DNA from: Deltaproteobacteria bacterium
GTDB taxonomy: Bacteria; Myxococcota_A; Polyangia; JAAYKL01
DNA: 32,181 bases
Assembly (NCBI GenBank): GCA_016935665.1
Contig: JAFGQN010000191.1
Location: 1-32,181, forward strand
Direction of reading: 5' to 3'
Part shown: positions 2,296 to 32,181 of the stretch, one piece after another
Layout: each line of letters begins with the position of its first letter
Position numbering within the stretch: position 1 is the stretch's first letter
Made by a program: the position numbers and the translations under genes
The notes under the pieces: generated by a model
Databases searched by the model: none
What the model was told of the DNA's origin: nothing
Seen by the model: only the letters and a program-made list of their open reading frames with translations

Positions 2296-2309
2296 CCCGT
2301 GGCGGGTGT

Positions 2310-14870: not shown

Positions 14871-15548
14871 TCAGTTGCTGTTTTTCACCGGACGGTAGGG
14901 ATGCAGAAAACTGGCCAGTTGGCCTGGACTTCGGGTTTGCGCGTATACCATGCCATTTCCACTGAATTTGGCCACCAACCCTTCACCGCCAAAGAACAGC
15001 GACTTGATGCCGCCCACTTTGGTCACTGAGTATGTGACTGTTTCCTCGAATGCCACGATGTGATCGGTATCCACAATGTACTCGCCTTCACAGGCTTTGG
15101 GATAAATGGCGCCATAGGATGCCACAAACACTGTGCCCGGCCCCGTGGCTTTGAGCAAAAACATTCCCGTACCGCTGAAAAAGCCTTTGACACCGCCCCA
15201 TTTGGTATCGAGCGTCACTGACGGCGTGGCAGCCACGTATGCAGACGATTGAATCATCAGCGATTTACCGTCCGCCAAATCAAAGGAAATGATATCCCCC
15301 GGAGAACCGGGCGCCAGCATCACGTGACCTTCACCGCCTTCAGCGGTAAATGTGTTTTGAAAAATGGATTCTCCCCCCAGAAGCTTTCTTTTAGCTGCGG
15401 CAAAAAGCCCGCCACGCGCTTCGGTTTTCATTTTAATATTCGACGACATGGACACCATGGCGCCGGACTCGGCCACAACGGATTCTCCGTCGGCGAGCGT
15501 GTAGTCGATAATGGCAAAATCAGGTGAACTTTTAATTTCGTATGGCAT
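14871..15548 (-). CDS. TIGR00266/AIM24-like protein, copy 3 of 3
   Basis: 225 aa from the ATG at 15548, which has a strong AAGGAG 6 nt upstream; the longer frame to 15662 overlaps the preceding gene. The family signature is visible: GESVVAESGAMVSMSS near the N terminus, LLGGESIFQNTFTA, APGSPGDIISFDL, a WGG/FGG loop with a GTGMFLL strand, and YIVDTDHIVAFEETV. The fold is a trimeric or pseudo-symmetric beta-sheet domain related to tryptophan RNA-binding attenuator-like proteins; mitochondrial AIM24 is the eukaryotic relative. The biochemical role is unknown. Third gene of a tight operon (14-bp gap). It is about 30-40% alike by eye to the other two copies; all keep GGES and VDTxHIVAF. Confidence 0.88.
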   Translation of the reverse strand: MPYEIKSSPDFAIIDYTLADGESVVAESGAMVSMSSNIKMKTEARGGLFAAAKRKLLGGESIFQNTFTAEGGEGHVMLAPGSPGDIISFDLADGKSLMIQSSAYVAATPSVTLDTKWGGVKGFFSGTGMFLLKATGPGTVFVASYGAIYPKACEGEYIVDTDHIVAFEETVTYSVTKVGGIKSLFFGGEGLVAKFSGNGMVYAQTRSPGQLASFLHPYRPVKNSN

Positions 15549-15562
15549 CTGACACTCCTTTC

Positions 15563-16249
15563 CTACTTGTTCCGCGGAGGCAGTTTGCCACCAACGAGAG
15601 AACCGAATTCCGCCGGATTTCGGGATTGAATAAACAGTTTTCCCTTGCCGTGGAAACGGCACACCAGTCCCTCCGAAGAAAAGATGGTGGAAAACCAGGA
15701 GCCCACTCGTTTGATGTCGAACTGCAACGTCGGCTCAAATGCCACGATGTGTCCGGTATCGATAATGTAGCTGCCGTCAATGTCTATCTCTTTTATGGCG
15801 CCGAATGCGTTCAGGGTCAGCGGACCATTGCCAAAAGCGCGAATCCAGAACATGCGACCCTCGCCAAAGAAACTTTTAAATCCGCCCCATTTGGTTTCAA
15901 TTTCCACGCCGGTGCCGCTGGCCAGATAGGACTGCTGCTGAATAATTAAATCACTGCCCTGCATATTGTACTGCATAATGTCGCCGGGAAGACTTGGGGC
16001 AAACGTCACTTCACCAGGACCGCTATCGGCATGAAATGTGTTTCTGAAAAAAGACTCGCCGAGAAAAAGAGAGCGGCCAAGGCCTTTTAAAAAACCGCCA
16101 ACGCCTTTGCCCTGGGAGGCCGACGTTTCCATGCGAATATGCGCATCCTGCGTCACCATGGCGCCGCTTTCCGCCATAACCGAATCACCCCGCTCCAATT
16201 TTGCGATTGCCAGCGCGTAGGCTGGACTGAATTGTATATCAAAATGCAT
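15563..16249 (-). CDS. TIGR00266/AIM24-like protein, copy 2 of 3
   Basis: 228 aa from the ATG at 16249, with AAGGAG 6 nt upstream; the frame to 16366 overlaps copy 1 and is rejected. Signature segments: GDSVMAESGAMVTQDA, FLGESFFRNTFHA, APSLPGDIMQYNM, YIIDTGHIVAFEPTL and SSEGLVCRFHGKGKLFIQSR. Between the first two lies a Gly/Lys-rich loop (GKGVGGFLKGLGRS). No signal peptide, so cytoplasmic. Middle gene of the operon (13-bp gap from copy 1). Confidence 0.88.
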   Translation of the reverse strand: MHFDIQFSPAYALAIAKLERGDSVMAESGAMVTQDAHIRMETSASQGKGVGGFLKGLGRSLFLGESFFRNTFHADSGPGEVTFAPSLPGDIMQYNMQGSDLIIQQQSYLASGTGVEIETKWGGFKSFFGEGRMFWIRAFGNGPLTLNAFGAIKEIDIDGSYIIDTGHIVAFEPTLQFDIKRVGSWFSTIFSSEGLVCRFHGKGKLFIQSRNPAEFGSLVGGKLPPRNK

Positions 16250-16262
16250 GTTCAACTCCTTG

Positions 16263-16961
16263 TTAAGCCGGTAATCTGGGGGAAATCCAGCCAACCATGG
16301 CGCCGAGATTTCGCGATTGGATAAACAGTTTGCCGTTACCATTGAATTGGCAGACCAACCCTTCACCAGACATCAACGTGGATTTCAATCCACCCGCGCC
16401 TTTGATTTTGTAGTCCAGCGTATCGTCGAACGCCACGATGTGGCCCGTATCCACAATGTACGAACCCTTAACCTCTATTTCGTGGATAGCGCCGTAGCAA
16501 TTCACCCATAAATCACCGTTTCCGGAACATTGCAGCCAGAACGCCCCCTCCCCGGAGAACAGGCTTTTCAACCCACCGAATTTGGTTTTAACTGTCACGT
16601 CCCCCGCCGAGGCCAGATAGCTGGAGGCTTGAACGATGAGCGATTTGTTGCCATCCAGCGTGTAGTGCACGATGTCGCCAGACAGTGCCGGAGCGATCAT
16701 CAGTTGACCGGATTGGCCTTCCGGCGGAGTATATGTGTTGACAAAGAAACTTTCGCCACCAAGGAACTTTCGAACCAACGCCATCATAAAATTGAGGAGC
16801 TTCCCAAAAAAGCCCATCTTGTTGCCGCCGATGGTTGTTTTAATATTCAGCCCGTCGCTCATCCCCACCATTGATCCCGCTTCAACGGTGACACTTTCAC
16901 CGGCCGCCAGATCGATTGTGGACATGGCATAAGCCGGCCCAAACTCGATATTCTGCTGCAT
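16263..16961 (-). CDS. TIGR00266/AIM24-like protein, copy 1 of 3
   Basis: 232 aa with GGAGGG 6 nt before the ATG. Signature segments: GESVTVEAGSMVGMSDG, FLGGESFFVNTYTP, APALSGDIVHYTL, YIVDTGHIVAFDDTL and GEGLVCQFNGNGKLFIQSR. The loop after the first strand set (NKMGFFGKLLNFMMALVRK) is hydrophobic and longer than in the other copies, perhaps a membrane or partner contact. First gene of the operon, reading away from the ECF sigma factor gene across a 258-bp shared upstream region. Confidence 0.9.
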   Translation of the reverse strand: MQQNIEFGPAYAMSTIDLAAGESVTVEAGSMVGMSDGLNIKTTIGGNKMGFFGKLLNFMMALVRKFLGGESFFVNTYTPPEGQSGQLMIAPALSGDIVHYTLDGNKSLIVQASSYLASAGDVTVKTKFGGLKSLFSGEGAFWLQCSGNGDLWVNCYGAIHEIEVKGSYIVDTGHIVAFDDTLDYKIKGAGGLKSTLMSGEGLVCQFNGNGKLFIQSRNLGAMVGWISPRLPA

Positions 16962-17139: not shown

Positions 17140-17219
17140 ATCAGTGACGGCAACAACATTTTTTTTTACTTCCCTGTGACAACAGGTTCTCGGATATTGA
17201 TGGGCTGGGACTACACACT

Positions 17220-17753
17220 ATGAAGACAGCGGTAAAGCGCGCACAGCAGATTGAAGACATGCACCGGAAATACGCCGGTGTCATTTATGATTTGTGTCTG
17301 CGCATCTTAAAGGATGGGGCAGAGGCGGAAGATGCCGTTCAGGAAACGTTTCTGAGTGCGTTTCGAGCACTGGATTCATTTTCGTACGGAGATTCTCACT
17401 TGCCCTGGTTGTATCGCATCGGTACCAACACCTGTTTGAAGATGCTGCGTACCCGGCGGCGAAAGGGCGCCACTCCCATGGAATCGGTCGCATCTGTGGT
17501 TGATACATCATGTTTATCCGATCCCGCCGACGCCATATCGGTGCGCGCAAAACTGGAAACGCTGCAAGAGAATTTGGATGAAAGAAATATGGAAATTGTT
17601 ATTTCCCACTTTTTGCTCGGAATGAATCAGCAGGAGGTTGCCGATATGCTGGGAATTTCCAGACGGGCTGTGGTAAAACGGCTCACACGCCTCAAGTCGC
17701 AGATTGGGGAAATGCCATTTCGTGATTTGGAACACCGCCAATCACAGGAGTAA
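17220..17753 (+). CDS. ECF-type RNA polymerase sigma factor
   Basis: 177-aa alternative sigma factor that directs RNA polymerase to a stress or envelope regulon. Sigma-2 region: YDLCLRILKDGAEAEDAVQE followed by AFRALDSFSYGDSHLPWLYRI (about 20-85); sigma-4 region: helix-turn-helix QQEVADMLGISRRAVVKRLTRLK (about 139-161). There is no sigma-3, as expected for group IV. The ribosome site is weak (GGG about 10 nt upstream). It heads a four-gene operon with its likely anti-sigma factor 5 bp downstream, and it may regulate its own operon, as is usual for ECF factors. Confidence 0.92.
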   Translation: MKTAVKRAQQIEDMHRKYAGVIYDLCLRILKDGAEAEDAVQETFLSAFRALDSFSYGDSHLPWLYRIGTNTCLKMLRTRRRKGATPMESVASVVDTSCLSDPADAISVRAKLETLQENLDERNMEIVISHFLLGMNQQEVADMLGISRRAVVKRLTRLKSQIGEMPFRDLEHRQSQE

Positions 17754-17758
17754 AATCG

Positions 17759-18580
17759 ATGACTGACTGCCCTTCCAGACTGATGCTGGCCAGCTACCAT
17801 ACAAACGAGATGGATGAACGCCAGATAGAAATGGTGAATTCTCATTTGAAACACTGCGCACGCTGCAACGAGGTACTAAATAAATTAAGACAGCACGCGA
17901 CGGCATACGAATCAAACGAAGCACACCATTTGTCCAATCTACGCGCCGCAATGGCAGCCGAAAACGCAGCGAATGACAATGTCGTTTCCATCCGTCAATC
18001 CCGGCGGGGAAAAGCAGCCATCTATGCCGGTGTCGCCATCGCCGCAGCAGCACTGCTGCTCGTTATGTTTCCAGTATTTAAGCCCCGCAGCCAGGATTCC
18101 GAAAAAGACATGGTAACGTACAAGGGGGACTTCAGCATGAATGCCGTGGTCAAACGCGATTCGAATCAGTTTGTGCTCAGTGAAGATGCGGCGCTGCAGG
18201 AGAACGATGCCCTTCGATTCACGGTGCAGACCAAATCTCCAGGTTTTGTTTCCATCTTCAACGTGGACGCCACCGGTGCCATTACGCTGCTGTATCCAGG
18301 CAGCGATTCGTCACAGAATCTTCCTGCGATGAAAATCCCCCGAAGTGGCGAGACAACACTGGACGGCAGTGTCGTTCTGGATGATGCCACCGGGACCGAG
18401 CGGTTTGTCACAGTATTTTCCACCAGACCGTTTAAAACAGATTCCATCCGAAACATTCTGAAAAAAGCAACGAATCAAAGTATCCATGACAGCGAAGATA
18501 TTGAAAACATGCTCACTGCACAATCGCCCGAACCGATGGCAGATGCGACTGTTCGCATTCTTACCATTCACAGGAAATGA
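17759..18580 (+). CDS. Transmembrane anti-sigma factor with zinc-binding ZAS domain and periplasmic domain
   Basis: Predicted to hold the adjacent sigma factor at the inner membrane. The N-terminal cytoplasmic part has the ZAS signature H-x3-C-x2-C (His29, Cys33, Cys36 in SHLKHCARC), one transmembrane helix spans about 86-107, and the C-terminal 165 residues are periplasmic. That part (VVKRDSNQFVLSEDAAL...NDALRFTVQTKSPGFVSIF...ITLLYP) resembles DUF4384-type beta domains, which in other bacteria often occur near caspase-like proteins. A good AGGAG sits 9 nt before the start, inside the sigma gene's end. Its stop overlaps the caspase start by ATGA, so translation is coupled. Confidence 0.87.
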   Translation: MTDCPSRLMLASYHTNEMDERQIEMVNSHLKHCARCNEVLNKLRQHATAYESNEAHHLSNLRAAMAAENAANDNVVSIRQSRRGKAAIYAGVAIAAAALLLVMFPVFKPRSQDSEKDMVTYKGDFSMNAVVKRDSNQFVLSEDAALQENDALRFTVQTKSPGFVSIFNVDATGAITLLYPGSDSSQNLPAMKIPRSGETTLDGSVVLDDATGTERFVTVFSTRPFKTDSIRNILKKATNQSIHDSEDIENMLTAQSPEPMADATVRILTIHRK

Positions 18581-20193
18581 TGAGACGCTTCAACCGGGAA
18601 CGCCGCTGTCGATTTTTGACACCGTCGGTATTTGGACTGTGTTCAATGGTGATGTTCCTTTTTTCCGCTCGGGTATTGGCGGACACAGCCCGGTTCGCAC
18701 TTGTGGCGGGGAACAACCAGGGGAATGAACATCGGGAAACACTGCGATACACCCATCGAGATGCCCGTAAAATGTTCGATTTGCTGACCCAGCTTGGGCG
18801 ATTCAAAAAGGATAACACCGTTCTGCTGCTCGAGGGGTCGGCAAAGGAATTCTGGCAGCAACTGAAGAGCCTGGAGGCAAAAGCAGCCGCGGCGCAGCAG
18901 GCCGGACAGGATACCATGCTGCTAATCTACTATTCGGGTCATGCCGCAGAATCCGCGCTGGAGCTGGGCAACAGTCTGGTGAAATTCAGTGACCTTCGTC
19001 GATTCCTTGAGCGCTCCCCCATGCAGGTCCGCCTGGCATTTGTGGATTCCTGTCACAGTGGTCAGCTCATAGCATCCAAAGGCGCCAGGCGGGGTGCGGA
19101 ATTCAAAATCAATGTGAATGACGAAATTTCGTCCTCGGGGTATGCCATCATCACCTCCAGCGCCCAGAATGAGCTGAGTCAGGAATCCCGGGAGCTGCGC
19201 GGCGCTTTTTTTACGCACTATCTGGCAAGCGCGCTGCGGGGAAATGCGGATACATCCAATGACGGCAAAGTCACTCTTCAGGAAGCGTACAAATACGCAT
19301 ATGCCCAAACTCTTGCCCAGACGTCCGGAAACATCGGGGTGAGCCAGCATCCCATGTACCACTTTCAGCTGAAGGGCAAAGGCGAAATCGTCCTGACGCA
19401 CACCCGGAAAGCTTACTCAGCGCTGGAGATTCCGTTTATTGAAGACGGGCGCATCCTCCTGCTGGACGGCATTGGCGAAGAAGTGCTGGCGGAGGCGGAG
19501 GCCCGTCGCAATGAGCGCATTCGGCTCAGCGTCCCGCCTGGCCCGTACATCGTTTACATTATAAAGAAAAGCGGAGCCGTTCGCATTGCCGAAGCCGATG
19601 TTTTGCCCCGTGAGACCACCACCCTCACTCCGGATGATTTCAGCACCACCACCCTTAAGGACGCGGTGTCCAAGGGAGGGCTTTTTCGAACCCCCGAATA
19701 CACATGGCGTCACCGGGCGGGGATATTTACGCTGCTGCGGTCCACTCCCCTTAACGGTGTGGACCCGCCATGGGGAGTGGGCCTTCACTATCGACTGACG
19801 CATGCCACCGGCATTCAGCCCGCCATTCGCGTCTTCACCACCCGTTCCGCTCATGAAGAAACGGCTCGAAAGTATTACGATGTGGCGATTTCAGCCGGAA
19901 TTGGCTATCTTTTCAATGTGAATTTTTTGCAACTGCGTTTCGAATTGCTTATTGGATATGAACACATGTTCCAGGATGAGACCCCTCATAGCAATGTGGT
20001 GGTCGGACGTCCGCACTCCTCCGCATTTTCAGGTATCGGCACCGTGGGAATTGAGGTACCATTGGCAATGGTTTACCTGTTCGCCGACGTGGGTGCCGGG
20101 GGTCGAATTTACCAGATCGCTTCGGAAGGCTGGCGACCGCGTTTCGAATTTCAGGCGATTGCGGGAGCCGGGTTTTCATGGGGAACACAATGA
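18577..20193 (+). CDS. Exported caspase-fold (C14) protease with beta-rich C-terminal domain
   Basis: Predicted Cys protease of the caspase/metacaspase superfamily. A signal peptide covers residues 1-35 (cleavage after RVLA). The p20-like domain has FALVAGNNQGN on strand 1, the catalytic His122 in IYYSGHA and Cys159 in FVDSCHSG; GAFFTHYLASALRG and an EF-hand-like DTSNDGKVTLQEAY follow (Ca2+ dependence possible, as in metacaspases). Residues about 280-375 look like a carboxypeptidase-regulatory or Ig-type segment. Residues 375-538 alternate polar and apolar residues in several strands (WGVGLHYRL, AISAGIGYLF, FRFELLIGYEHMF-type, GIGTVGIEV, FQAIAGAGFSW), like an outer-membrane beta-barrel. If so, the protease domain would face the periplasm. 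ATGA couplings join it to both neighbours. A nearby substrate would be the anti-sigma factor's periplasmic domain (inference). Confidence 0.88.
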   Translation: MMRRFNRERRCRFLTPSVFGLCSMVMFLFSARVLADTARFALVAGNNQGNEHRETLRYTHRDARKMFDLLTQLGRFKKDNTVLLLEGSAKEFWQQLKSLEAKAAAAQQAGQDTMLLIYYSGHAAESALELGNSLVKFSDLRRFLERSPMQVRLAFVDSCHSGQLIASKGARRGAEFKINVNDEISSSGYAIITSSAQNELSQESRELRGAFFTHYLASALRGNADTSNDGKVTLQEAYKYAYAQTLAQTSGNIGVSQHPMYHFQLKGKGEIVLTHTRKAYSALEIPFIEDGRILLLDGIGEEVLAEAEARRNERIRLSVPPGPYIVYIIKKSGAVRIAEADVLPRETTTLTPDDFSTTTLKDAVSKGGLFRTPEYTWRHRAGIFTLLRSTPLNGVDPPWGVGLHYRLTHATGIQPAIRVFTTRSAHEETARKYYDVAISAGIGYLFNVNFLQLRFELLIGYEHMFQDETPHSNVVVGRPHSSAFSGIGTVGIEVPLAMVYLFADVGAGGRIYQIASEGWRPRFEFQAIAGAGFSWGTQ

Positions 20194-21437
20194 TACGACA
20201 TGCGTTACACTATCTGTTTATTGTGTGGCTGACACTGTTTTCAGTGATAGCATGCGGTCCTGGATTAATCGAAGAGGAGGCCGCCCCGGATTCGGACAAC
20301 TCATTCACACAGCCAAAGGAACCGGAACTGCAGAATCTCCACTGGGATTCGCCACCGGATACGGGGTCGAACACCGAGCAATGCCCCGGCGCAATCCAGG
20401 CCGACTGTCCATCCGGAGTTACCAATCTACTCAGATATCCCGACTACGTGGTCGCCTCCACAGAATGGCTCGACCGGCCGGCCAGATTTACCCACGCCCT
20501 TTTTGGAATCGTCCTTGGGGAATTTACTGACAACGAAACCGCTGCGCCATTTGCCATCCAGGTGTCGATGAGTAATGCATGGGAGCGCACGTCATTTGGA
20601 AAAGACACAATCATCTTTACGCCACCGGCGGAGTTGTCCTTTTTTGGCCAATGGATTGGTGGCGCCGAATACCAGGGATTTATTGCAGGCACCCCCTACC
20701 CGGTTGTCGCAGTATACCACCAGAACAACGACTACTTCGTGTTTGGCATCCCCACAAATACGGCAAACGATTCGTACGAAACTATGACACCGATTTCTCA
20801 CGCCACGCTGAATACCGACAAGGCATATTCCAGGGTCGTTTATCTCGCCGACTTAACCACCAAGCAGAACTTTGCCGAGGAACTGAATGCGCTTTGCCTC
20901 TATGGCGAAGGAATGATCTGTTTCGATGGCGAAACCTGGACTGAAGAGATTTCACCCGACGATGGCCCCGAGATCACCGCCGTCGCGCTGTCAAAACCGC
21001 TGGATGAGATTAGTATCATCGCCGTCGACCATTCAAAGACAATATTCACGCGCAAACAGGGCGCCTGGACAACACATGTTCTGGACGGGAAAGGCACGGT
21101 TGAAACCGCCACCGTCAACCCGGTATCTCAGCAGTTTGCACTGGCAGGCGACGGTTTGCTGGCGAGAGGATACTCCCCCTATTACCTGGAACAATGCGAT
21201 GTGGATTTGGACATCGTGGATATCCATTACTTTTACCCGGTCTCCCAGTTCACGGTACTGACAAAGGAGGGCGAAATTTTCGGTGGCACGTCATCGCTCA
21301 AGGACCACCCACAGCTGTGTGGTCCCATCTTTGCCAACCCAAATACGCTCGATATTTTTACCGGCCAGGGCAACCTGTTCGTACTGAATGAGTCGGAGCT
21401 GCTGACGTCGCAAATTGAACAAATCATTGTTGAATAA
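20190..21437 (+). CDS. Lipoprotein of unknown function, last gene of the caspase operon
   Basis: 415 aa from the ATG at 20190, which overlaps the caspase stop as ATGA and gives a clean lipoprotein signal (MIRHALHYLFIVWL...SVIAC, Cys22); an ATG at 20178 lies upstream. After an acidic Pro-rich linker comes a beta-rich body with repeated hydrophobic strands ended by short turns (ITAVALSKPLDEISIIAVDH, TIFTRKQGAW, QQFALAGDGLLARGY, QFTVLTKEGEIFGG, NTLDIFTGQGNLFVL), suggesting a WD40- or YncE-like beta-propeller. I do not recognise a named family. As a lipoprotein it could sense or scaffold envelope signals for the caspase and anti-sigma factor; this rests on gene order only. Confidence 0.78.
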   Translation: MIRHALHYLFIVWLTLFSVIACGPGLIEEEAAPDSDNSFTQPKEPELQNLHWDSPPDTGSNTEQCPGAIQADCPSGVTNLLRYPDYVVASTEWLDRPARFTHALFGIVLGEFTDNETAAPFAIQVSMSNAWERTSFGKDTIIFTPPAELSFFGQWIGGAEYQGFIAGTPYPVVAVYHQNNDYFVFGIPTNTANDSYETMTPISHATLNTDKAYSRVVYLADLTTKQNFAEELNALCLYGEGMICFDGETWTEEISPDDGPEITAVALSKPLDEISIIAVDHSKTIFTRKQGAWTTHVLDGKGTVETATVNPVSQQFALAGDGLLARGYSPYYLEQCDVDLDIVDIHYFYPVSQFTVLTKEGEIFGGTSSLKDHPQLCGPIFANPNTLDIFTGQGNLFVLNESELLTSQIEQIIVE

Positions 21438-21503
21438 CAATTCCATTACGTCTGACGTCACCAGCACATACTGCAAGCGGGTATCCACCGTTTCCCTTTT
21501 CAC

Positions 21504-23174
21504 TTACGCTGTTTCGTTATATTCCTGTTCCCTAATCGTCCACGTGCCCACCTGAACGGCCAGCGCCTCCAGCGCCTCCGTCAATTCCATTGTGCTTCCT
21601 TCCATGTCGACAGAAATGCTCTGATTTTCGTTGGCGCTCAGATTAATTTCATCCATGGCCGCCGCAATCTGCGACAACCCTGTTGATTGCTGGTCGGCGG
21701 CCGCATCAATCTCATTGGCCACAATAGACGCCTCCTGAATCGCTTCACTCAAGTCATTGACAATCGCACCGGTATTGGCGATAGACGTCACACCATAGGC
21801 GGTCCGATCTTCGCCGTCCTGTGCCAGTTTCACCATCGCTCCAACGGACCGCCGAATGCTGGTCAATGTACGCGTAATTTGCTCCGTCGCTTCCTGAGAC
21901 TGCCCCGCAAGCTCTTGCACTTCCTGAGCCACGACAGCAAACCCTGCGCCAAACGTCCCGGCCTTGGCCGCCTCAATGGATGCGTTGACCGCCAGAATTT
22001 TTGACTGATCCGCAACAGAATTAACAGAACTGATGATGGCTCCCACTTCCTCCAACTGCGAGAGCAAGGCGCGGCTATGAGCAAAAATATTGGCGGAATC
22101 ACTTTTTATCTGTGTAATAATGCTGTTTGACAGCTGAACCGCTTCCCTTCCCCGCTCAGATGCCAGGGCACTTTTCTTTGCCGCGCTCACAATCCGCTTG
22201 GCGGCTTCAGCAACAGTTTTTCCCGAAATTTCCATTTGCTCCACTGTGGTTGCGGTCTGAGATACCGCTGCGGCCTGCTGCGATGCCGACACAGCCAATT
22301 GACTCATGGCCATGGCAATGCTGCGCGACACCCCGGATGCTTCTATTGTCAGGGACTTCACCAGCGCCACCTGCTTCTGGAGCGCCTGAGCAATGCCTTG
22401 AATGGCAGCGCCCAGACTGGCAATCTCAGCGGTTCCGCCCTTGCCAATTTCCACCTCTTTTGAGAGGTTTCCCCCGGCGATGTCAACCGCGCAGCTCACA
22501 AGCATTCGAAGCGGCTTACTCAACCGTTTTCCCAGCCAGATAATGCAAATAACCTGAAACAAAATAAACAATAAAAGAATTCCCCCCAGCCCCTTCGACA
22601 TTCGCTTGCCGGTTTCCGCAAACACCCTCACATCTGCGATGTAAACCAGATAGGCGACCACTTCCCCATTTTGTAAAATGGGATTGCCAACAAAAACGTA
22701 GTCTCCCTCCGACACATGAATGGGTTTTGAAATATCTGAAAGACCGGTCATTTGCTTTTCGAACGGTAACCGGGCGGGCACGTCTTCCCGAACCACCCGG
22801 GCCACGCTGACGAGATGGGCGTCAGAAGACTCACTGTGTTCTGCTGCTGCATGCACATTCGTCTGTGCCCTGTAAACCAGAAAGCCACTTACCTCCCGGT
22901 GCGTTTCAATTGCCTGCCTGAAAACACGCTGCACGTTATCTGAAATATCGGCTCCCGCGGTTTCCTTCAACGAGTGAACAATTTCGTCTCCCCAGCGAAG
23001 CTGATAATTTTCGGCTGAAGACGTAACCCCCTGTAAAACCATCTGTTGGATATTTTTTTGCAGCGTCGGCTTGTAGTACAGAAAAAAAGCGCCAAAAACC
23101 AGCAACAGCTGAATTCCCACAATAAAAAGGACAGATATGGCCAACAATTGCGTGAGCGAGAACCTGCGTTTCAT
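21504..23174 (-). CDS. Methyl-accepting chemotaxis protein
   Basis: 556-aa receptor. TM1 (about 11-33), a periplasmic sensor of about 160 residues, TM2 (about 195-214), HAMP (215-268) and a cytoplasmic signalling region with the hairpin tip (AIISSVNSVADQSKILAVN followed by ASIEAAKAG and GFAVVAQEVQELAGQS). The sensor fits a single-cache style domain (YLVYIADVRVF near its end) but is not assigned. No CheR-tethering pentapeptide is present at the C terminus. The ATG at 23174 has GGGAG about 7 nt upstream and starts at MKRRFSLTQLL; the frame from 23216 is longer without support. It diverges from the che operon and is its likely receptor. Confidence 0.93.
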   Translation of the reverse strand: MKRRFSLTQLLAISVLFIVGIQLLLVFGAFFLYYKPTLQKNIQQMVLQGVTSSAENYQLRWGDEIVHSLKETAGADISDNVQRVFRQAIETHREVSGFLVYRAQTNVHAAAEHSESSDAHLVSVARVVREDVPARLPFEKQMTGLSDISKPIHVSEGDYVFVGNPILQNGEVVAYLVYIADVRVFAETGKRMSKGLGGILLLFILFQVICIIWLGKRLSKPLRMLVSCAVDIAGGNLSKEVEIGKGGTAEIASLGAAIQGIAQALQKQVALVKSLTIEASGVSRSIAMAMSQLAVSASQQAAAVSQTATTVEQMEISGKTVAEAAKRIVSAAKKSALASERGREAVQLSNSIITQIKSDSANIFAHSRALLSQLEEVGAIISSVNSVADQSKILAVNASIEAAKAGTFGAGFAVVAQEVQELAGQSQEATEQITRTLTSIRRSVGAMVKLAQDGEDRTAYGVTSIANTGAIVNDLSEAIQEASIVANEIDAAADQQSTGLSQIAAAMDEINLSANENQSISVDMEGSTMELTEALEALAVQVGTWTIREQEYNETA

Positions 23175-23670
23175 GAGAAGCTCCCAAGTAATCAATATTA
23201 ACATCAGCGAGAACAAAAAATTATTATTTCACTGTAGCGCGTTTTCTACGAATCACAAAATAATATTCGGACTAACCATCTCGAATGGTACAATTTCAGC
23301 TTCATCCACCACACAAATCCACGGGGGCATCATGTTGCATACCGGGGATTATTTCTTGTCATTTTCATAAAATACAAATATTTTCAATTGAACGAAAAAT
23401 TCAAATGCGAACAAATAGATGCAAGATACTTTCTCATGGAGGAATTTGACCCGGAACCATCTAAAGCCCAAAACTCGAAGTAAGACATTTTGCCACATAT
23501 CGGGTGCATTTAAAATCGTCCAGAGAACAATCATGTGCCCATTCAGGAGATATCTCGGGAGAATTTTAAGAGAAACCGGAGAATGGCAAGGGAAAGCATT
23601 TGACCACAATCAATTCTGAGTTCAAATTTCTAACTGACGACCAGAACTCGTACATAGTGGGAGAAAAAAC
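23175..23670. other. Intergenic region, 496 bp, between the MCP gene and the che operon
   Basis: No convincing gene. A 15-codon open frame at 23437-23484 (ATG GAG GAA ... TAA) has no support beyond length. The stretch should contain promoters for both divergent units, including the candidate at 23600-23627. A perfect palindrome GAGATATCTC lies at 23547-23556. Confidence 0.5.
23600..23627 (+). promoter_or_regulatory. Possible sigma-70 promoter of the che operon
   Basis: TTGACC (23600-23605), a 16-bp spacer and TCAAAT (23622-23627) match 5/6 and 4/6 of the consensus, about 44 bp before the cheY-like start. By-eye match only. Confidence 0.3.
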
Positions 23671-24066
23671 ATGGCAAGCAAGATTCTTATCGTCGACGAT
23701 ACAGAAACTATGCGTCTGACGCAGCAAATGATGCTGAAAAACGAAGACTGCGAAATTGAAATGGCCACCAATGGCGTTGAAGCCCTCGAAAAAATTGGCC
23801 TCAACAAGCCGGACCTGGTTTTGATGGACATCATGATGCCGGAGATGGATGGCATTGAATGCTGCAGACAAATCAAAAACAACGATGCGTACAGCGACAT
23901 TAAAGTGGTAATGGTAACGACCCGGAGTGAATATGCGCGGGTGAAGGAAGCATTCGCCGCCGGTTGTGACGATTACATCAATAAGCCCATAAACAAAGAG
24001 GAGCTGCTCACCAAGGTCAATGACTTGCTGAAATTTGTCAGCCTCAGAAAATTGTTGAAAAATTAG
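23671..24066 (+). CDS. CheY-like single-domain response regulator
   Basis: 131 aa, one receiver domain only: acidic pair Asp9-Asp10 in ILIVDD, phospho-acceptor Asp53 in LMDIMMPEMDG, Thr83 in VTT and Lys105 in INKPI. It would take phosphate from the CheA encoded downstream and act on a motor or pilus or another target. GGGAG stands about 7 nt before the ATG. First gene of the che operon. Confidence 0.94.
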   Translation: MASKILIVDDTETMRLTQQMMLKNEDCEIEMATNGVEALEKIGLNKPDLVLMDIMMPEMDGIECCRQIKNNDAYSDIKVVMVTTRSEYARVKEAFAAGCDDYINKPINKEELLTKVNDLLKFVSLRKLLKN

Positions 24067-24076
24067 CAGGTAAACC

Positions 24077-24697
24077 GTGACAGACCCCAAACGAGATGAT
24101 TCCAGATCTGCCAGAATTTCAGGTGGTTTGTTCGATAAAATTGAAGAAATCACCAGGCTCGAGAACCAGGTTGTAAATCTAAAACGACAATTATTGCTCG
24201 ATTCCGCGCAGGGGTTCGGCGATGAACAGCTCGAGAATCCCAGTTTTCTGCTGGTCCACTCGGGAAAACACGTTTTTGCAGCCCCTTTGAAATATGTGGA
24301 TGAAATTGTGGAAATGCCCCACATTGAAGCGCTCCTGAATCCCATCTCATCCATTGCAGGAACAGTCAATTACCATGGCGATTTGCTTGCGGTGATTGAT
24401 GTCGAGGAGTTGACAACATCCGCCAGTACGCCAATGGAGTCATCTCAGGTGCTGGTCATCTGCACCATCGATCATCGCCGACTCGCGTTAAAAGTCGATG
24501 AAGCAATTGAAGTGGTCACAGTGGCCCAGTCCGACATCACCATGTCCGACACAGTGATGCCCGGTATCAGTAAAAGCAGTGGCCTGATTAAACTACCGGA
24601 CAACAATTCCGCACTTATCCTCGACCTGATTTGGATCGGAGTGGGTGCTCACCTTGGCAGCATTCTCAGTGAGGATGCGGCGACGCCTCAGGATTGA
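24077..24697 (+). CDS. CheW-like coupling protein with N-terminal coiled coil
   Basis: 206 aa starting at a GTG with AGGT about 6 nt upstream. A helical N-terminal segment (about 15-50, KIEEITRLENQVVNLKRQLL) precedes a CheW domain (FLLVHSGKHVFAAPLKYVDE, IAGTVNYHGDLLAVIDVEEL, LALKVDEAIEVV). CheW links receptors to CheA. The coiled coil is not part of a minimal CheW and may contact a partner. A second CheW is encoded at 26119-26652, so the two probably serve different contacts. Confidence 0.88.
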   Translation: MTDPKRDDSRSARISGGLFDKIEEITRLENQVVNLKRQLLLDSAQGFGDEQLENPSFLLVHSGKHVFAAPLKYVDEIVEMPHIEALLNPISSIAGTVNYHGDLLAVIDVEELTTSASTPMESSQVLVICTIDHRRLALKVDEAIEVVTVAQSDITMSDTVMPGISKSSGLIKLPDNNSALILDLIWIGVGAHLGSILSEDAATPQD

Positions 24698-24701
24698 GCA
24701 T

Positions 24702-26126
24702 ATGATTACGCCCATCTCCAAACTAACCATCACAGATCTGCAGTTTGACCGAATTCGCGAACTGGTGCAGCAGCGAACAGGGCTCACCATTTCAAGTTCC
24801 CGTAAACGGGATTTGGCCAAACGCCTTACCCCTTTTGTCCAAAAGGCCCATTCGATTGAAAAGCTCATTTCACAACTTGAAAAAAGCCCCATTATCGATC
24901 AGAGTCTGGTCAACGCGCTAACCATTGGCGAAAGCTATTTTTTTAGAAATCATCCCCACTTTCTGGCGCTGAAAAACGACATTATCCCGCGTCTAATCGA
25001 AAAAAATATGAGTACCAGACGGCTCAGGATATGGAGTGCCGGTTGTTCCACCGGAGAAGAACCGTATTCCGTCGCCATTCTCCTGGAAAGGGATTTTCCA
25101 CAACTGTTGGGATGGGACATCTCCATTCTGGCGTCGGATATCAACACCCATTTTTTACAGAAGGCCCAGACGGCACACTATACGCAATGGTCATTTCGCG
25201 GTGTTGATGACGCCACAATAAAACGATATTTCAAACAAACAGGGAAAAACGAGTATCAGCTCCTCAACAGTATTCGGAATCGGGTCTCTTTCTTTCGACT
25301 CAATCTCTCCACCCTGCCCAGTCATGTCGAGCCCATGTACCAGAACTGCGATCTGGTCCTTTGCCGAAACGTTTTGATTTATTTTCCAACAAAACTGGCC
25401 ACACGCATCTGTGAAGTGTTCTCCAACTGTATCACTGAAGACGGCTATCTTCTTTTGGGTCACTCAGAAGCGTTTCCGTCTCTCAAAGATTTGAAAACAG
25501 TGTACTCCCATGCCACTTACTACTACCACAAAAAAACGGCGAACGAACCGGAGAGAGCGCTATCGCGCATTTCCCTTGTGCCCGGACTGGGTCCCTACGA
25601 TCCCGAAAAGATGATTATGCCGGTGCACTATGAGACACCGGCGTTTGCCGGCGGCAGCCCCCGCACTGCGGTAAGCGACACATTTACCGCCATGTTTCAA
25701 ACCGAATCCACTGTATTGGACGAGGATTTGAAACGGGTCCGGGATTTGTCAATGGAGGGGGAATTGACAAAAGCGAGCGAAATGCTCCAAAAACTCGAAC
25801 GTTCTGCAGGCAAGCTCGATTTCAGAGTTTATTTTTTAAAGGCCCTGGTCGCCGACCAGCAAAACGAGCCGGAAGAAGCGCTGGCCCATTTGAAGCAGGC
25901 CATCTTTATTAACAAAGAATTTGTTATTGGACACTATTACCAGGGGGTCATCGCCGAACGGTTCGGGGACTTGAGAACCGCCAGGAGGGGATATCGCAAC
26001 ACATGCCAATTGGCGGAAAACATGCGGCCGGATGTGGAGATAAACGAAGGCGGTGGCATTCGCGCCGGTCGGCTGATGGAAATCGCGACTGAGCGACTAA
26101 AGGAACTGGAGCTGCAAAATGGCTGA
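24702..26126 (+). CDS. CheR-type MCP methyltransferase with C-terminal TPR-like region
   Basis: 474 aa; the ATG at 24702 is 4 bp after the cheW stop, and the frame from 24645 would overlap cheW. The helical N-terminal domain has TIGESYFFRNHPHF; the SAM-binding domain has LRIWSAGCSTGEEPYS (about 108-123) and CDLVLCRNVLIYF. Residues about 340-470 form TPR-like helices (TKASEMLQKLERSAG, EPEEALAHLKQAI, FVIGHYYQGVIAERFGD), as in FrzF-like CheR proteins, and may bind receptors or CheA. It methylates glutamates in the MCP. It overlaps the next gene by 8 bp. Confidence 0.92.
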   Translation: MITPISKLTITDLQFDRIRELVQQRTGLTISSSRKRDLAKRLTPFVQKAHSIEKLISQLEKSPIIDQSLVNALTIGESYFFRNHPHFLALKNDIIPRLIEKNMSTRRLRIWSAGCSTGEEPYSVAILLERDFPQLLGWDISILASDINTHFLQKAQTAHYTQWSFRGVDDATIKRYFKQTGKNEYQLLNSIRNRVSFFRLNLSTLPSHVEPMYQNCDLVLCRNVLIYFPTKLATRICEVFSNCITEDGYLLLGHSEAFPSLKDLKTVYSHATYYYHKKTANEPERALSRISLVPGLGPYDPEKMIMPVHYETPAFAGGSPRTAVSDTFTAMFQTESTVLDEDLKRVRDLSMEGELTKASEMLQKLERSAGKLDFRVYFLKALVADQQNEPEEALAHLKQAIFINKEFVIGHYYQGVIAERFGDLRTARRGYRNTCQLAENMRPDVEINEGGGIRAGRLMEIATERLKELELQNG

Positions 26127-26652
26127 CAAAATGCGGGAAATCGAAATCAGCTTACTGAAGAATCGCGCACACCGCCTGGCAACGCCCATCGAAACGAGTG
26201 ACGACAACGCTGAAACAGAGCGGCACCTGATTTTCACGGCAATGGAGTCCAAGTTTTCTGTGCCACTGGACTTCGTGGAAGCGGTCACTAAAATTTCCGA
26301 CATCATGCCCATACCGCACACGCCAGCCCATATTCAGGGGGTGATTCGGCGACGGGGTCAAACTATCGCACTGGTGAATCTCAGATACTTTTTCACAGCG
26401 AGTACAGAATCGCTGGCAGATGAAGATTACGCCGTGGTGCTGAAAGTCAAAGGCAAGCTCTTTGCGCTGCAGGTGGAGGATGTGGAAGGTGTGTCCCTGC
26501 TGCCGACAGCCAGCATTTTCCCGGTGCCCGAAAGTTACGACAAAGCATTGCGTCCGTACATTTCCGGCATCACAATGGATGATCTCGCAATCATTAATTT
26601 AAACGAAATACTGATGACACCCAATTTTAGCACAACGCCAATTGAAGGATAA
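26119..26652 (+). CDS. CheW-like coupling protein, second copy
   Basis: 177 aa; CheW domain with LIFTAMESKFSVPLDFVEAV, HIQGVIRRRGQTIALVNLRYFF and LFALQVEDVEGV, plus a short N-terminal helix. It overlaps the end of cheR and ends 3 bp before cheA, so it is likely translated together with CheA and is the best candidate for CheA's direct coupling partner. Confidence 0.92.
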   Translation: MADKMREIEISLLKNRAHRLATPIETSDDNAETERHLIFTAMESKFSVPLDFVEAVTKISDIMPIPHTPAHIQGVIRRRGQTIALVNLRYFFTASTESLADEDYAVVLKVKGKLFALQVEDVEGVSLLPTASIFPVPESYDKALRPYISGITMDDLAIINLNEILMTPNFSTTPIEG

Positions 26653-26655
26653 GCC

Positions 26656-28947
26656 ATGAGCGCCAACGACGATCTCTCAACCGAACAGATTGAACAGCTA
26701 TCCAAAGTATTTCGCGCTGAAGCGGTGGAACACATCAAGGGTATTGCGGAAATTCTCTTTGCCGCAGAAGACGGACTACTGGACAACCGCGATGAGGGCA
26801 TCAATCGCGCCTTCCGCGAAGCCCATAGTCTAAAAGGATCCGCAGGAACGCTCGGATTCAATCGCATCGCAACCATGGCCCATCGGTTCGAAGACGCTCT
26901 TGGAACAATGAAAGGCGACAGGCGCGAGGAGCTTACCCCCAAACGGCTGGAAACACTGCTTCAGGCTCTGGAAACCATCCGTCAGGGAGTGGCCACTCAT
27001 GCGCCGGGCGATTCAGAGTTGTCGGATCGCGAACAGGTAGCAATGCGTCAGCTGGAATCCACATTTCCACTGGAGCGACGGTCAAAAGCGCCACCGGAAC
27101 CATTTGCTGCATCAACTGTTGCCGCAGCAACCGAAGCGACAGCGGAATCCGTTCCAGCGCCACCACCCACAGAGGAGTCTCCAAAGGACAAAGCAGCCGC
27201 CGGGGCTGCCAAAACCGCCGTTCAGGAGGCCAAATCAGAGTTCATTCGCGTCTCCGAAAAAAGAATCGACGAAGTCATCACGCAATTTGGCGAATTGTTT
27301 GAAACCAGCCTCCAGCTGGAATCACTCAGCCATGACCTCGATACCAATATCCATGAAGCCAACCGGCTGAGTGAAAGCGTCGGTATCCTTTTGGGCAAAC
27401 TGGAGGGTTCGGCCCACGAAGCGGAAACCATGGAACTGTTGGATATGGCACGGAACCTGTCCATTCTCAGTAAAAATGCCGGTTCCAAATTTGATTTCAA
27501 CCAGCGGGAACTCACCAAGCACATTCAACGTTCACAGGACGCATTGCGTGAGTTGCGCATCGCCCCCGTTTCCAATCTCACCCTCACCGCCCGCAATCAG
27601 GTACGCGAGACATCCAACAGCACGGGAAAACGCGTCCAGTTTGCCATGCACGGAGGAGAGTATTCCGTTGATAGAGCCATTCTGGATGCCATCGAAAAAC
27701 CGCTTATCCATCTGATTCGCAACGCCATTGACCACGGAATTGAAACGCCGGCCATTCGCCGCCAACGGGGAAAAACCGACGAAGGGCATCTCACCATCGA
27801 AGGCCGCCATCTTGGTGATGCCGTCGAATTGCACATAGTCGATGACGGCAACGGCGTGGATCCGGAAAGAATTCGTACCAAGCTGGTTGAAGCGTACCAG
27901 ATGGATGCGGATGTGGCTGCCCGGTTATCCGAAGCGCAGCTCTTCGATTACCTTTTTGAACCCGGATTCACCACCAGCCAGAAAGTGTCTCAGATTTCAG
28001 GCCGGGGAGTCGGACTGGATGTGGTGAAATACACCATTGAGCATCTGGGCGGCGAAGTCAGTCTGCAGAGCACCCTGGGCAAAGGGTCCAGATTTATCCT
28101 CAGACTGCCGCTCACCATGTCTTCCATCAAATGCCTGCTGGTGGACGCCGGGGGCCAGACACTGGCGATTCCAGCGGCCAACGTGTCCAGGGTCACTGTC
28201 ATGGACGAAACCGACGTCAAGACAATTGGCGGTGGAGATGTCATCATTCAGGAAGGTCAGCAGATTGCCCTCACGTCGTTTGAAGAAATACTCTACCCCG
28301 AAAAGGATTTCAAAGAGCGAAAGCGCCGGGATTTACGGTTCGCCGCCACGGTCCGCTTCGGCAATCGCAAATACGCGTTTGGATTCGATCGCATCTATGA
28401 GTACACGCAACTGGTAATTAAACCACTGGGAGATTTGCTGGAACGCGTTCCAAATGTATCCGGACTGGCATTGCTTGGCACTGGCAAGCTTTGCCTTGTG
28501 CTCAACCCATCCGATCTGATTCGATCGGCCACCGGCACCGTTGCGCAAAAGACGCTGGCGCTCAAAAAATTGCCTCAAAAGCGGCAAACCACCGTTCTGG
28601 TGGTGGACGATTCCATTGCGATTCGCACCATGCAGCAAACACTGCTGGAATCTGCCGGATTTAAAGTACTGCTGGCCACCGATGGCTTACAGGCCCTTCA
28701 AACCCTTGGAAACAATGAGGTTGACCTGGTTATCTCCGACGTCCAGATGCCCAACATGGATGGATTTGAGCTCACCAAAGCAATTCGCTCCCGCAACAGA
28801 ATCAAAAGTATTCCGGTCATTCTGGTGACATCACTGGGAAGCCCGGAAGACATCAGCGCTGGGATGGCCGTTGGCGCAGATGCCCATATTGTAAAAAAGG
28901 AATTAACTCGAACAGAGCTGCTAACCACAATAGGTCAGTTGCTTTAA
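26656..28947 (+). CDS. Hybrid chemotaxis kinase CheA with C-terminal receiver domain
   Basis: 763-aa CheA. HPt domain at the N terminus (phospho-acceptor His57 in AFREAHSLKGSAGTLGF), an Ala/Pro/Glu-rich linker (about 145-195), dimerisation helices, and HATPase with N-box LIHLIRNAIDHG, G1 VDDGNGVDPERI and G2 SGRGVGLDVVK. A CheW-like P5 domain follows (LPLTMSSIKCLLVDAGGQTL), then a receiver (Asp651-Asp652, Asp695 in VISDVQMPNMDG). The classical P2 CheY-binding domain is not obvious. CheA-REC fusions occur in Frz-like and type IV pilus systems; the receiver may act as a phosphate sink. Fits the operon. Confidence 0.95.
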   Translation: MSANDDLSTEQIEQLSKVFRAEAVEHIKGIAEILFAAEDGLLDNRDEGINRAFREAHSLKGSAGTLGFNRIATMAHRFEDALGTMKGDRREELTPKRLETLLQALETIRQGVATHAPGDSELSDREQVAMRQLESTFPLERRSKAPPEPFAASTVAAATEATAESVPAPPPTEESPKDKAAAGAAKTAVQEAKSEFIRVSEKRIDEVITQFGELFETSLQLESLSHDLDTNIHEANRLSESVGILLGKLEGSAHEAETMELLDMARNLSILSKNAGSKFDFNQRELTKHIQRSQDALRELRIAPVSNLTLTARNQVRETSNSTGKRVQFAMHGGEYSVDRAILDAIEKPLIHLIRNAIDHGIETPAIRRQRGKTDEGHLTIEGRHLGDAVELHIVDDGNGVDPERIRTKLVEAYQMDADVAARLSEAQLFDYLFEPGFTTSQKVSQISGRGVGLDVVKYTIEHLGGEVSLQSTLGKGSRFILRLPLTMSSIKCLLVDAGGQTLAIPAANVSRVTVMDETDVKTIGGGDVIIQEGQQIALTSFEEILYPEKDFKERKRRDLRFAATVRFGNRKYAFGFDRIYEYTQLVIKPLGDLLERVPNVSGLALLGTGKLCLVLNPSDLIRSATGTVAQKTLALKKLPQKRQTTVLVVDDSIAIRTMQQTLLESAGFKVLLATDGLQALQTLGNNEVDLVISDVQMPNMDGFELTKAIRSRNRIKSIPVILVTSLGSPEDISAGMAVGADAHIVKKELTRTELLTTIGQLL

Positions 28948-28965
28948 AGAGGACGACGCGAAACC

Positions 28966-30054
28966 ATGATTCGATTACTGATAGCCGAAGATTCCTTGAC
29001 CGTGCAACGTGTGTTAACGCATCTGTTGTCGGGCGAGCCCAACATCGAGATTGTCGGAATAGCCAGCGACGGTGAAGAAGCAGTGCGCATGTGCAAAGAG
29101 CTTCGACCGGACCTGATGACGATGGACATTTTCATGCCCAAACTAAACGGTCTGGAGGCGACGCGGAAAATCATGTCCGAATGCCCCACCCGAATTGTGG
29201 TCATCAGTTCCATGGTCAATGCGCCAGATACCAAGTTTGCATTCGAGGCCATGCGAGCCGGCGCCATCGACGTCATCGAAAAACCGGTTGGCATTCTATC
29301 CGGCAAATATCAGGAAATAAAAAAAGAACTGCTTCGCATCATCAAGTCATCCATCAAAACGCGTCCGGATGCTCAGTTGTCATGGCTGCCGTCTCAAATC
29401 GCCGATGCCCCGTGGATTAAGCCGGCTAAACCCGCATCCGTGCCACCGAGCGAAATCCCAAAACCGCCCGATGAAAATGCCCCGCTGGAACTCATTTGCA
29501 TTGGCGGATCAACCGGCGCACCAACAGTGATTGTGGAAATTCTGTCTCAACTCCCAAAAGAATATCCCATTCCCATTATTGTAGCGCAGCACATCTCCAA
29601 AGGGTTTGCCGAAAAAATGGCAGACTGGCTCAACAGCGCCATCTCTCTCGACGTCAGGATGGCATCGGAGCACACCAAACTTCGGCCCGGGCTGGTGCTG
29701 GTATGCCCGGATCACAAACACCTGCGTTTTGTGGGAAAAGACCAGATTGTGTTGTCCAATCCAACTGGCCAGGGCGGACACATTCCCAATATTGACATGC
29801 TGTTTCAGACCGTAGCCGAACATTACGGCGCATCAGCGGTCGGCGTCATTCTTTCAGGGATGGGAAAAGACGGTTCCAGCGGCCTGCTTAAAATGCGTCA
29901 GAAGCAGGCGTACACCATCGGCCAGAATGAAGAAACATCGGTGGTCTACGGCATGAATCGCGTGGCCAGCGAAATTGGGGCCGTCCACGTGGAACGGTCC
30001 CCCATTGGAATCGCCAATACGCTGGTTGAACTGGGCGAAAAACGGCACTCATAA
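28966..30054 (+). CDS. CheB-type chemoreceptor methylesterase/glutamine deamidase
   Basis: 362 aa. Receiver domain (Asp54 in MTMDIFMPKLNG) and C-terminal esterase domain with catalytic Ser in CIGGSTGAP, His in VAQHISKGFAEKM and Asp in SGMGKDGSSG. It removes methyl groups from MCPs after phosphorylation by CheA. AGAGGA precedes the ATG by about 9 nt. Last gene of the che operon; no cheD, cheC or cheZ is present, consistent with a non-flagellar, Frz-like system. It converges on the next gene with an 11-bp gap. Confidence 0.95.
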   Translation: MIRLLIAEDSLTVQRVLTHLLSGEPNIEIVGIASDGEEAVRMCKELRPDLMTMDIFMPKLNGLEATRKIMSECPTRIVVISSMVNAPDTKFAFEAMRAGAIDVIEKPVGILSGKYQEIKKELLRIIKSSIKTRPDAQLSWLPSQIADAPWIKPAKPASVPPSEIPKPPDENAPLELICIGGSTGAPTVIVEILSQLPKEYPIPIIVAQHISKGFAEKMADWLNSAISLDVRMASEHTKLRPGLVLVCPDHKHLRFVGKDQIVLSNPTGQGGHIPNIDMLFQTVAEHYGASAVGVILSGMGKDGSSGLLKMRQKQAYTIGQNEETSVVYGMNRVASEIGAVHVERSPIGIANTLVELGEKRHS

Positions 30055-32000: not shown

Positions 32001-32107
32001 AAAAAACCTCCATAAATCAAGGGAGTTTATGAAGCTTAGCGCCTTACAAAAAAAAAAACAGTTTTTATTTCTTGACGGAACAGGTCCAGATACATATTCT
32101 GCGCGGC

Positions 32108-32181
32108 GGAGAGTTGGCCGAGTTGGTCTAAGGCGCACGATTCGAAATCGTGTGAGGGTAACACCTCCGAGGGTTCGAATC
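32108..32181 (+). tRNA. tRNA-Ser (anticodon CGA), 3' end beyond the window
   Basis: Starts GGAGAGTTGGCCGAG. The D-loop contains GGTCTAAGG; the anticodon stem CACGA/TCGTG closes the loop TTCGAAA, giving anticodon CGA (reads UCG, Ser). A long variable arm (GAGG...CCTC) and the T-arm start GAGGGTTCGAATC follow, as in class II tRNAs. The T-stem 3' half and acceptor 3' strand are missing because the window ends. Confidence 0.93.

Follow-up and report, generated by a model that had tools for sequence, protein, structure and literature searches.

Bacterial caspase homologues encoded beside sigma factors have been known since 2012. In Myxococcus xanthus, a sigma factor shares an operon with four of the five metacaspases, and sigma-70/metacaspase operons also occur in Anaeromyxobacter, Haliangium, Sorangium, Ralstonia and Fibrobacter (Asplund-Samuelsson et al. 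2012, PMC3501461). The main text of that survey suggests a role in cell death, proposes no cleavage site or signalling mechanism, and does not contain the words anti-sigma, periplasm or barrel. Here we analyze a 32,181-nucleotide stretch (the window) of contig JAFGQN010000191.1 from a Deltaproteobacteria bacterium (assembly GCA_016935665.1), in which genes for an extracytoplasmic function (ECF) sigma factor, a transmembrane anti-sigma factor and an exported caspase with a predicted outer-membrane barrel follow one another. The M. xanthus-type operons almost certainly represent loci of this kind. We propose, as a rather probable reading, that the three proteins form a cell-surface signalling unit in which the caspase-type protease serves as the site-1 protease of the ECF anti-sigma factor. 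The sigma-caspase operons as such were already described; the new element would be a caspase acting as the protease in ECF surface signalling.

The FecI-FecR-FecA system (PMC11637429) combines an outer-membrane barrel receptor, an inner-membrane anti-sigma factor with a periplasmic domain and an ECF sigma factor with proteolysis of the anti-sigma factor. FecA-type receptors are, however, large TonB-dependent barrels whose signalling domain contacts the anti-sigma factor, whereas here eight strands are predicted and a protease domain takes that place. No Pfam domain of a TonB-dependent receptor with a plug and N-terminal signalling domain is present in 42 homologues of the caspase. The parts of a FecIRA-like trio (barrel, inner-membrane anti-sigma factor, ECF sigma factor) are all predicted at this locus, and we infer a functional link between them. 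In the RseA/DegS/RseP and RsiW pathways, a site-1 protease trims the ectodomain of the anti-sigma factor before an M50 protease acts. The known site-1 enzymes are of the serine type (DegS, AlgW), signal peptidase or PrsW types, while the candidate here is a clan CD cysteine protease from the same operon.

Cutting of an ECF sigma inhibitor by a caspase-like protease is known from Craspase (Csx29, a TPR-CHAT protein, with Csx30 and an ECF sigma factor; PMC10028731). This analogy was drawn in the initial annotation of the window, made from its sequence, and it is apt in that Csx29 cleaves Csx30. Craspase differs in being cytoplasmic, RNA-guided and part of type III-E CRISPR; its sensor is not homologous, and neither CHAT nor Csx30 is related to the barrel, DUF4384 domain or zinc anti-sigma factor found here. 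EACC2 caspase loci with ECF factors (PMC8195603) and ECF54 factors with CHAT proteins (PMC8999054) represent a related idea in another compartment. A literature search, with preprints, subscription papers and the full ECF group catalogue outside its scope, returned no description of an outer-membrane caspase, a caspase site-1 protease, the Lys-Gly motifs presented below or the mechanism.

Sigma factor, anti-sigma factor and caspase as a conserved unit

The operon comprises four tightly packed genes on the forward strand, encoding the sigma factor, the anti-sigma factor, the caspase and a lipoprotein (Table 1). A 5-bp gap separates the first two, followed by ATGA overlaps between the anti-sigma and caspase genes and between the caspase and lipoprotein genes, with the lipoprotein ATG at 20190. 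The open reading frame coordinates and Pfam agree with the genes and spacing as first annotated.

The genome that contains the window measures 8.16 Mb and encodes 17 homologous caspases, 13 of which, by our count, have a sigma or anti-sigma gene close by on the same strand; it has 63 sigma region-2 matches in total. Sigma, anti-sigma, caspase is the commonest order at these loci, often with ATGA overlaps; an alternative arrangement runs caspase, small gene, sigma, anti-sigma. We fetched 80 further caspase loci independently from named public genomes, covering metagenome-assembled genomes of Myxococcota and Deltaproteobacteria, Myxococcus, Pyxidicoccus, Archangium, Anaeromyxobacter, Nannocystis, Hyalangium and one Chitinispirillum. 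An anti-sigma gene lies within 2.5 kb on the same strand at 72 of them, and a sigma gene at 67. In the reverse direction, a search with the anti-sigma profile alone yielded 74 proteins from genomes other than that of the window, each with a complete periplasmic domain. A caspase lies within 1.5 kb of 69 of these, and none of the 74 belongs to a genome lacking a caspase match (141 Myxococcota genomes searched); as the best 10-18 candidates were scored per genome, the counts are lower bounds.

The gene association thus recurs at most caspase loci in the genome and the phylum, far beyond chance, and caspases without sigma or anti-sigma neighbours are a minority. Sigma factor, anti-sigma factor and caspase constitute a conserved unit in Myxococcota, with the lipoprotein outside the conserved core, so that only three genes of the four-gene order envisaged in the initial annotation are conserved. 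The lipoprotein had also been put forward there as a possible reader of the signal. We rejected it as the core sensor: its homologues adjoin the closest orthologues only, and it has no Pfam or PDB match.

It was considered whether the anti-sigma profile might favour carriers of the Lys-Gly motif, making the argument circular. At caspase loci without a recognized anti-sigma factor, the upstream genes are not overlooked membrane anti-sigma factors. A fusion of anti-sigma factor and caspase would have directly indicated their interaction, but the apparent cases are out-of-frame upstream extensions in GC-rich DNA, and a further candidate (L141) seems to result from a frameshift or an error of assembly. 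In one genome, two caspase genes of the same family are arranged in tandem (G134:C4:19024-20061 and 20424-21491).

The search for a sigma-dependent promoter motif gave only a weak enrichment of GTTCTC upstream of the sigma gene in the closest subgroup. In this subgroup GTTCTC (or GATTCTC) is located 19-44 bp upstream of the sigma start, at 17180-17200 in the window and at loci L121, L122, L124, L126, L127, L134 and L063. It is a possible autoregulatory promoter element.

Predicted architecture of the caspase and the anti-sigma factor

The AlphaFold model of the caspase (pLDDT, the predicted local distance difference test, 87.4; 42 sequences) consists of a signal helix, the caspase domain, a small β domain, a poorly ordered linker (residues 360-377) and a barrel. 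The caspase domain matches Peptidase_C14 in Pfam (3.4e-14) and shows the caspase fold with the His-Cys dyad of family C14 (C14B, metacaspase/orthocaspase type). Structural comparison with VIA gives a Z score of 21.7 to Arabidopsis metacaspase 4 and about 21 to caspases and metacaspases, while Foldseek against the PDB returns caspases, metacaspases and legumain as well as outer-membrane barrels for the whole model. His122 within an SGH motif and Cys159 within a DSC motif are conserved in 76/76 and 77/77 homologues, respectively, one truncated homologue being without the His region; the dyad is never lost. A hydrophobic N terminus is found in nearly all homologues, in line with the exported caspase of the initial annotation.

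Metacaspases cleave after Arg or Lys, and the S1 pocket of TbMCA2 holds Asp95 and Asp211 (PMC4357240). In a metacaspase alignment these positions correspond to D62 and D157, which are conserved in 41/42 and 42/42 relatives. The caspase appears to retain the acidic S1 pocket expected for Lys or Arg at P1. AtMC4, the type II plant metacaspase that is the best structural match, likewise has a basic P1 preference and is activated by a cut after Lys. It differs in being cytosolic and calcium-dependent, in carrying its processing site in another loop (PMC4357240) and in the lack of a barrel. The protein is related to the EACC1-associated caspases but is not a member of that family (NCBIfam NF047832, 65.1 bits against a cut-off of 140). 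The Pfam scan finds Peptidase_C14 and neither TPR nor CHAT domains. PADLOC gives no CRISPR-type match for the anti-sigma factor, the caspase or the lipoprotein, and only weak helix-turn-helix-type matches for the sigma factor.

The C-terminal part, originally noted as a β-rich tail that might read a signal, is most plausibly an anchor in the outer membrane and probably also the sensor, the caspase being predicted to reside in the periplasm. The model contains exactly eight long strands across residues 378-536, and Foldseek against the PDB matches them to OmpW (E 4.8e-7), OmpX, OmpA, NspA and Ail. Antiparallel strands, export and an aromatic C-terminal strand, the features of eight-stranded barrels of the OmpA/OmpX/OmpW type, are all found in the predicted structure. 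The VIA list is filled by the caspase domain and is uninformative on the barrel. The loops comprise 10, 8, 13 and 3 residues after strands 1, 3, 5 and 7, and 4, 2 and 2 residues after strands 2, 4 and 6. Because the loops are long after strands 1, 3 and 5 and short after strands 2, 4 and 6, the N terminus of the barrel is predicted to be periplasmic, which puts the caspase on the periplasmic side rather than outside the cell.

These features extend to the family. Among 134 complete homologues, alternating strands are abundant in the tail (4.6 vs 1.0 windows per 100 amino acids) and 113 have an aromatic residue in the last five positions; one relative has a Pfam OMP_b-brl match (1.4e-6). The caspase's own barrel is a more likely sensor than the lipoprotein. 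In L074 (G007:C98:2204-3181 region) and other caspases of 750-800 amino acids, GFQGAGIANV-type repeats are located between the caspase and a barrel-like C-terminal end; these repeats appear to be another sensor type on the same protease.

The anti-sigma model (pLDDT 87.0, 44 sequences) shows a helical cytoplasmic part, a single transmembrane helix, a disordered juxtamembrane linker of low pLDDT (residues 104-124) and a β-sandwich. The N-terminal H-x3-C-x2-C motif, the one transmembrane helix and the adjoining ECF sigma gene are those of a transmembrane anti-sigma factor of the zinc-binding (ZAS) type, as first annotated. The zf-HC2 match is under the Pfam cut-off in the window protein (E 0.0036) and is obtained in 20/44 relatives; the zinc ligands are absent from some paralogous clades. 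The periplasmic domain had also been recognized, although its identity as DUF4384 had been overlooked. In VIA, the ectodomain reaches Z scores of 8.7-9.5 to Ig-like and S-layer domains. A natural fusion of an ECF sigma factor and a DUF4384 anti-sigma factor, 478 amino acids long, is encoded directly before a paralogous caspase (L014:4692-6128, G000:C231). Because this protein joins sigma to anti-sigma, it fixes the N terminus of the anti-sigma factor in the cytoplasm and DUF4384 outside.

Table 1 Features of the operon, with positions in the window
Feature	Position	Strand	Basis
ECF sigma factor, 177 aa (amino acids)	17220..17753	+	Pfam Sigma70_r2 1.2e-16, r4_2 2e-7; NCBIfam sigma70-ECF 1.8e-23
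Transmembrane anti-sigma factor, 273 aa	17759..18580	+	Zinc motif, transmembrane helix, DUF4384
ZAS-type H-x3-C-x2-C motif (H29, C33, C36)	17843..17866	+	Residues nearly invariant in relatives
Transmembrane helix, residues 85-103	18011..18067	+	Single hydrophobic helix in AlphaFold model
K122-G123, proposed site-1 cleavage dipeptide, juxtamembrane linker	18122..18127	+	As conserved as zinc ligands, 44 relatives
DUF4384/Ig-like periplasmic domain, residues 125-273	18131..18577	+	Pfam DUF4384 4.3e-9; β-sandwich
Exported caspase with predicted C-terminal outer-membrane barrel, 538 aa	18577..20193	+	Pfam, AlphaFold, Foldseek, VIA
Predicted N-terminal signal sequence, hydrophobic helix 16-30	18577..18678	+	AlphaFold helix, homologue comparison
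Caspase domain, residues 38-275	18688..19401	+	Dyad H122 (18940-18942), C159 (19051-19053); S1-pocket acids D62, D157
K168-G169, proposed self-processing site, activation loop, 9 residues after Cys159	19078..19083	+	(K/R)G in 138/140 unique homologues
Small β domain between caspase and barrel, residues 281-358	19417..19650	+	AlphaFold strands
K366-G367, proposed site freeing caspase from barrel	19672..19677	+	K/R 42/42, G 40/42 relatives
Predicted eight-stranded outer-membrane β-barrel, residues 378-538	19708..20190	+	AlphaFold, Foldseek
Lipoprotein, lipobox IAC-G, Cys22, lineage-specific accessory	20190..21437	+	Homologues only beside closest orthologues

Lys-Gly dipeptides and a proposed signalling mechanism

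Three sites predicted to be flexible, K168-G169 and K366-G367 of the caspase and K122-G123 of the anti-sigma factor, carry a nearly invariant pair of a basic residue and Gly. All three are located in low-confidence stretches of the models, with pLDDT about 52-73 in the K168 loop and partly under 50 in the caspase-barrel linker. The basic residue is present in 42/42 and Gly in 40/42 caspases at both caspase sites. In the larger set, 138 of 140 unique caspases carry (K/R)G in the activation loop (127 KG and 11 RG), compared to 39% expected from composition-shuffled segments, and the motif is kept despite loop insertions and deletions in paralogues (C231, C16, C86). At the caspase-barrel junction it is found in 130/139, compared to 32% expected in the same way. 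The 35 residues following the transmembrane helix of the anti-sigma factor contain it in 102 of 116 proteins (41% in shuffled segments), and KG alone in 93 of 116 (18%). Only M1, H29, C33, C36, K122, G123 and D208 are nearly invariant in 44 anti-sigma factors. The co-conserved basic-P1 site that the initial annotation had suggested looking for is therefore present at K122-G123, matched by the two dipeptides of the caspase. K168 lies 11 residues past strand β4; animal caspases are processed about 14 residues past this strand (PMC4357240). In one paralogue group the caspase loop has RG, and the anti-sigma factors have RG, KG, RA, KS or RS.

Proteins with a transmembrane helix and DUF4384 but without zinc motif or sigma gene are encoded at two of the fetched loci (L081, L088), where they adjoin a caspase, and in the window genome (L118). 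None of them has the Lys-Gly, whose loss coincides with that of the zinc domain and sigma gene; the three probably represent one lineage. DUF4384 structure as the sole reason for Lys-Gly is weakened by these proteins. The only clear readable caspase without a sigma gene (L239) has no Lys-Gly in its loop. A protease-substrate pair fits these data, because the caspase has a basic-P1 pocket and two basic-Gly linker sites of its own, and its partner carries the same dipeptide on the stretch that connects membrane and ectodomain. The Lys-Gly shared by exposed linkers suggests that the protease cuts the anti-sigma factor to signal from the cell surface, not to kill the cell.

The gene association, the conservation of the dyad and S1 pocket, the barrel with its periplasmic-side prediction and the three Lys-Gly sites in flexible linkers are computed; we infer that the cuts occur and in which order, as well as the signal and the regulon. 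The barrel in the outer membrane would sense a surface signal, with the N-terminal caspase hanging in the periplasm. Upon a trigger, the caspase would process itself after K168 in the activation loop, and a cut after K366 would probably free it from the barrel; its release would solve the problem of the distance between the two membranes. The caspase could then cut the anti-sigma factor after K122, between the transmembrane helix and DUF4384, so that the ectodomain is shed. Release of the ECF sigma factor would follow through an M50 protease of the RseP type together with cytoplasmic proteases, and the sigma factor would turn on its targets, probably including its own operon. The window genome encodes an RseP-like M50 protease with split catalytic parts (G000:C59), as needed at site 2. 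An envelope caspase that cuts the anti-sigma factor as a signalling protease had been suggested from the start and gains strong indirect support from the association, the dyad, the predicted side and the basic-P1 site; the cleavage and sigma release would proceed as above. In its broader form, the proposal describes a widespread, multiplied class of surface receptors that are sensor and site-1 protease in one protein: a periplasmic caspase, attached to an outer-membrane barrel, would free itself and cut off the ectodomain of its partner anti-sigma factor, in each case at Lys-Gly. We consider the chances of this broader form to be evenly balanced.

Several observations weigh against a signalling protease that acts at Lys-Gly. 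Four caspases of the window genome have no sigma or anti-sigma neighbour on the same strand, and the homologues are related to one another, so the counts are not independent. Met-Gly replaces Lys-Gly in one anti-sigma clade (L096, L101, L102, L108), a few anti-sigma factors have Lys-Ser, Lys-Ala, Arg-Ser or Arg-Ala, and two caspase loops have Lys-Asp or Lys-Thr. The dipeptide could be partly structural: in the anti-sigma factor it lies next to the first strand, and in 131/140 caspases its distance from Cys is constant. The control set of anti-sigma factors free of Lys or Arg is small.

The main rival, which we regard as unlikely, treats the caspase as a mere product of sigma control. The anti-sigma factor would be inactivated by ordinary envelope proteases, the operon would be autoregulated, and the caspase would hit other envelope substrates in stress defence, cell death or predation. 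Control of their own operon is common for ECF sigma factors (PMC10028731), and the four caspases without adjacent sigma or anti-sigma genes and the loci ordered caspase, x, sigma, anti-sigma are as this explanation would have it. It leaves unexplained, however, the shared Lys-Gly, the basic-P1 pocket and the near-obligate pairing of anti-sigma factor and caspase. It does not exclude cleavage of the anti-sigma factor by the caspase, and positive feedback may make both true.

The near one-to-one pairing would also be compatible with DUF4384 being an inhibitor or partner of the caspase, with the sigma system controlling the protease and Lys-Gly acting as a docking or structural element. L081 and L088 point in this direction, as DUF4384 beside a caspase but without zinc motif or sigma factor implies a caspase-related role of its own. 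We nonetheless find this improbable: the proteins without a sigma-binding part have no Lys-Gly, which fits a cleavage site needed for signalling only, and the motif is in a disordered linker, off the folded domain. It is also conceivable, if very improbable, that an autotransporter-like barrel exports the caspase, which is freed at K366-G367 and acts on other cells, the sigma coupling being regulatory only. An N-terminal enzyme and a C-terminal barrel with a conserved basic dipeptide between them would suit such a secreted protease, and Myxococcota include predators. Autotransporter barrels have 12 strands, however, and an eight-stranded barrel is too narrow for a passenger; the loop lengths place its N terminus in the periplasm, and K122-G123 of the anti-sigma factor would be unexplained.

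Neighbouring genes and significance

Three similar tandem genes on the reverse strand (16263-16961, 15563-16366 and 14871-15662) are oriented away from the sigma operon, from which 258 bp separate them; the middle one matches AIM24 (1.9e-60). The reverse strand also encodes a pair of EcoRII-like restriction enzyme and cytosine-5 methylase (1066-3644) and a protein with Tim44-like and TerB/DUF533-like regions (30066-32138). A chemotaxis-type cluster (MCP, CheY-like, CheW, CheR, CheA-CheY-like hybrid and CheB) occupies 21504-30054.

The role of bacterial caspase homologues is a long-standing question that has mostly been framed as cell death. The locus provides a defined candidate substrate, the neighbouring anti-sigma factor, together with a candidate bond (K122-G123) and a predicted compartment, the periplasm. 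The system is real and conserved, and its reading as ECF surface signalling in which a caspase acts as the protease is partly supported. If true, it would establish a new route for a signal across two membranes, in which the barrel receptor is itself the protease, and would give a bacterial caspase a signalling function in the envelope, with many channels working in parallel in each genome. With 13 of 17 caspases as parallel copies, it would then rank among the major sensory systems of a large phylum, most of which is uncultured.

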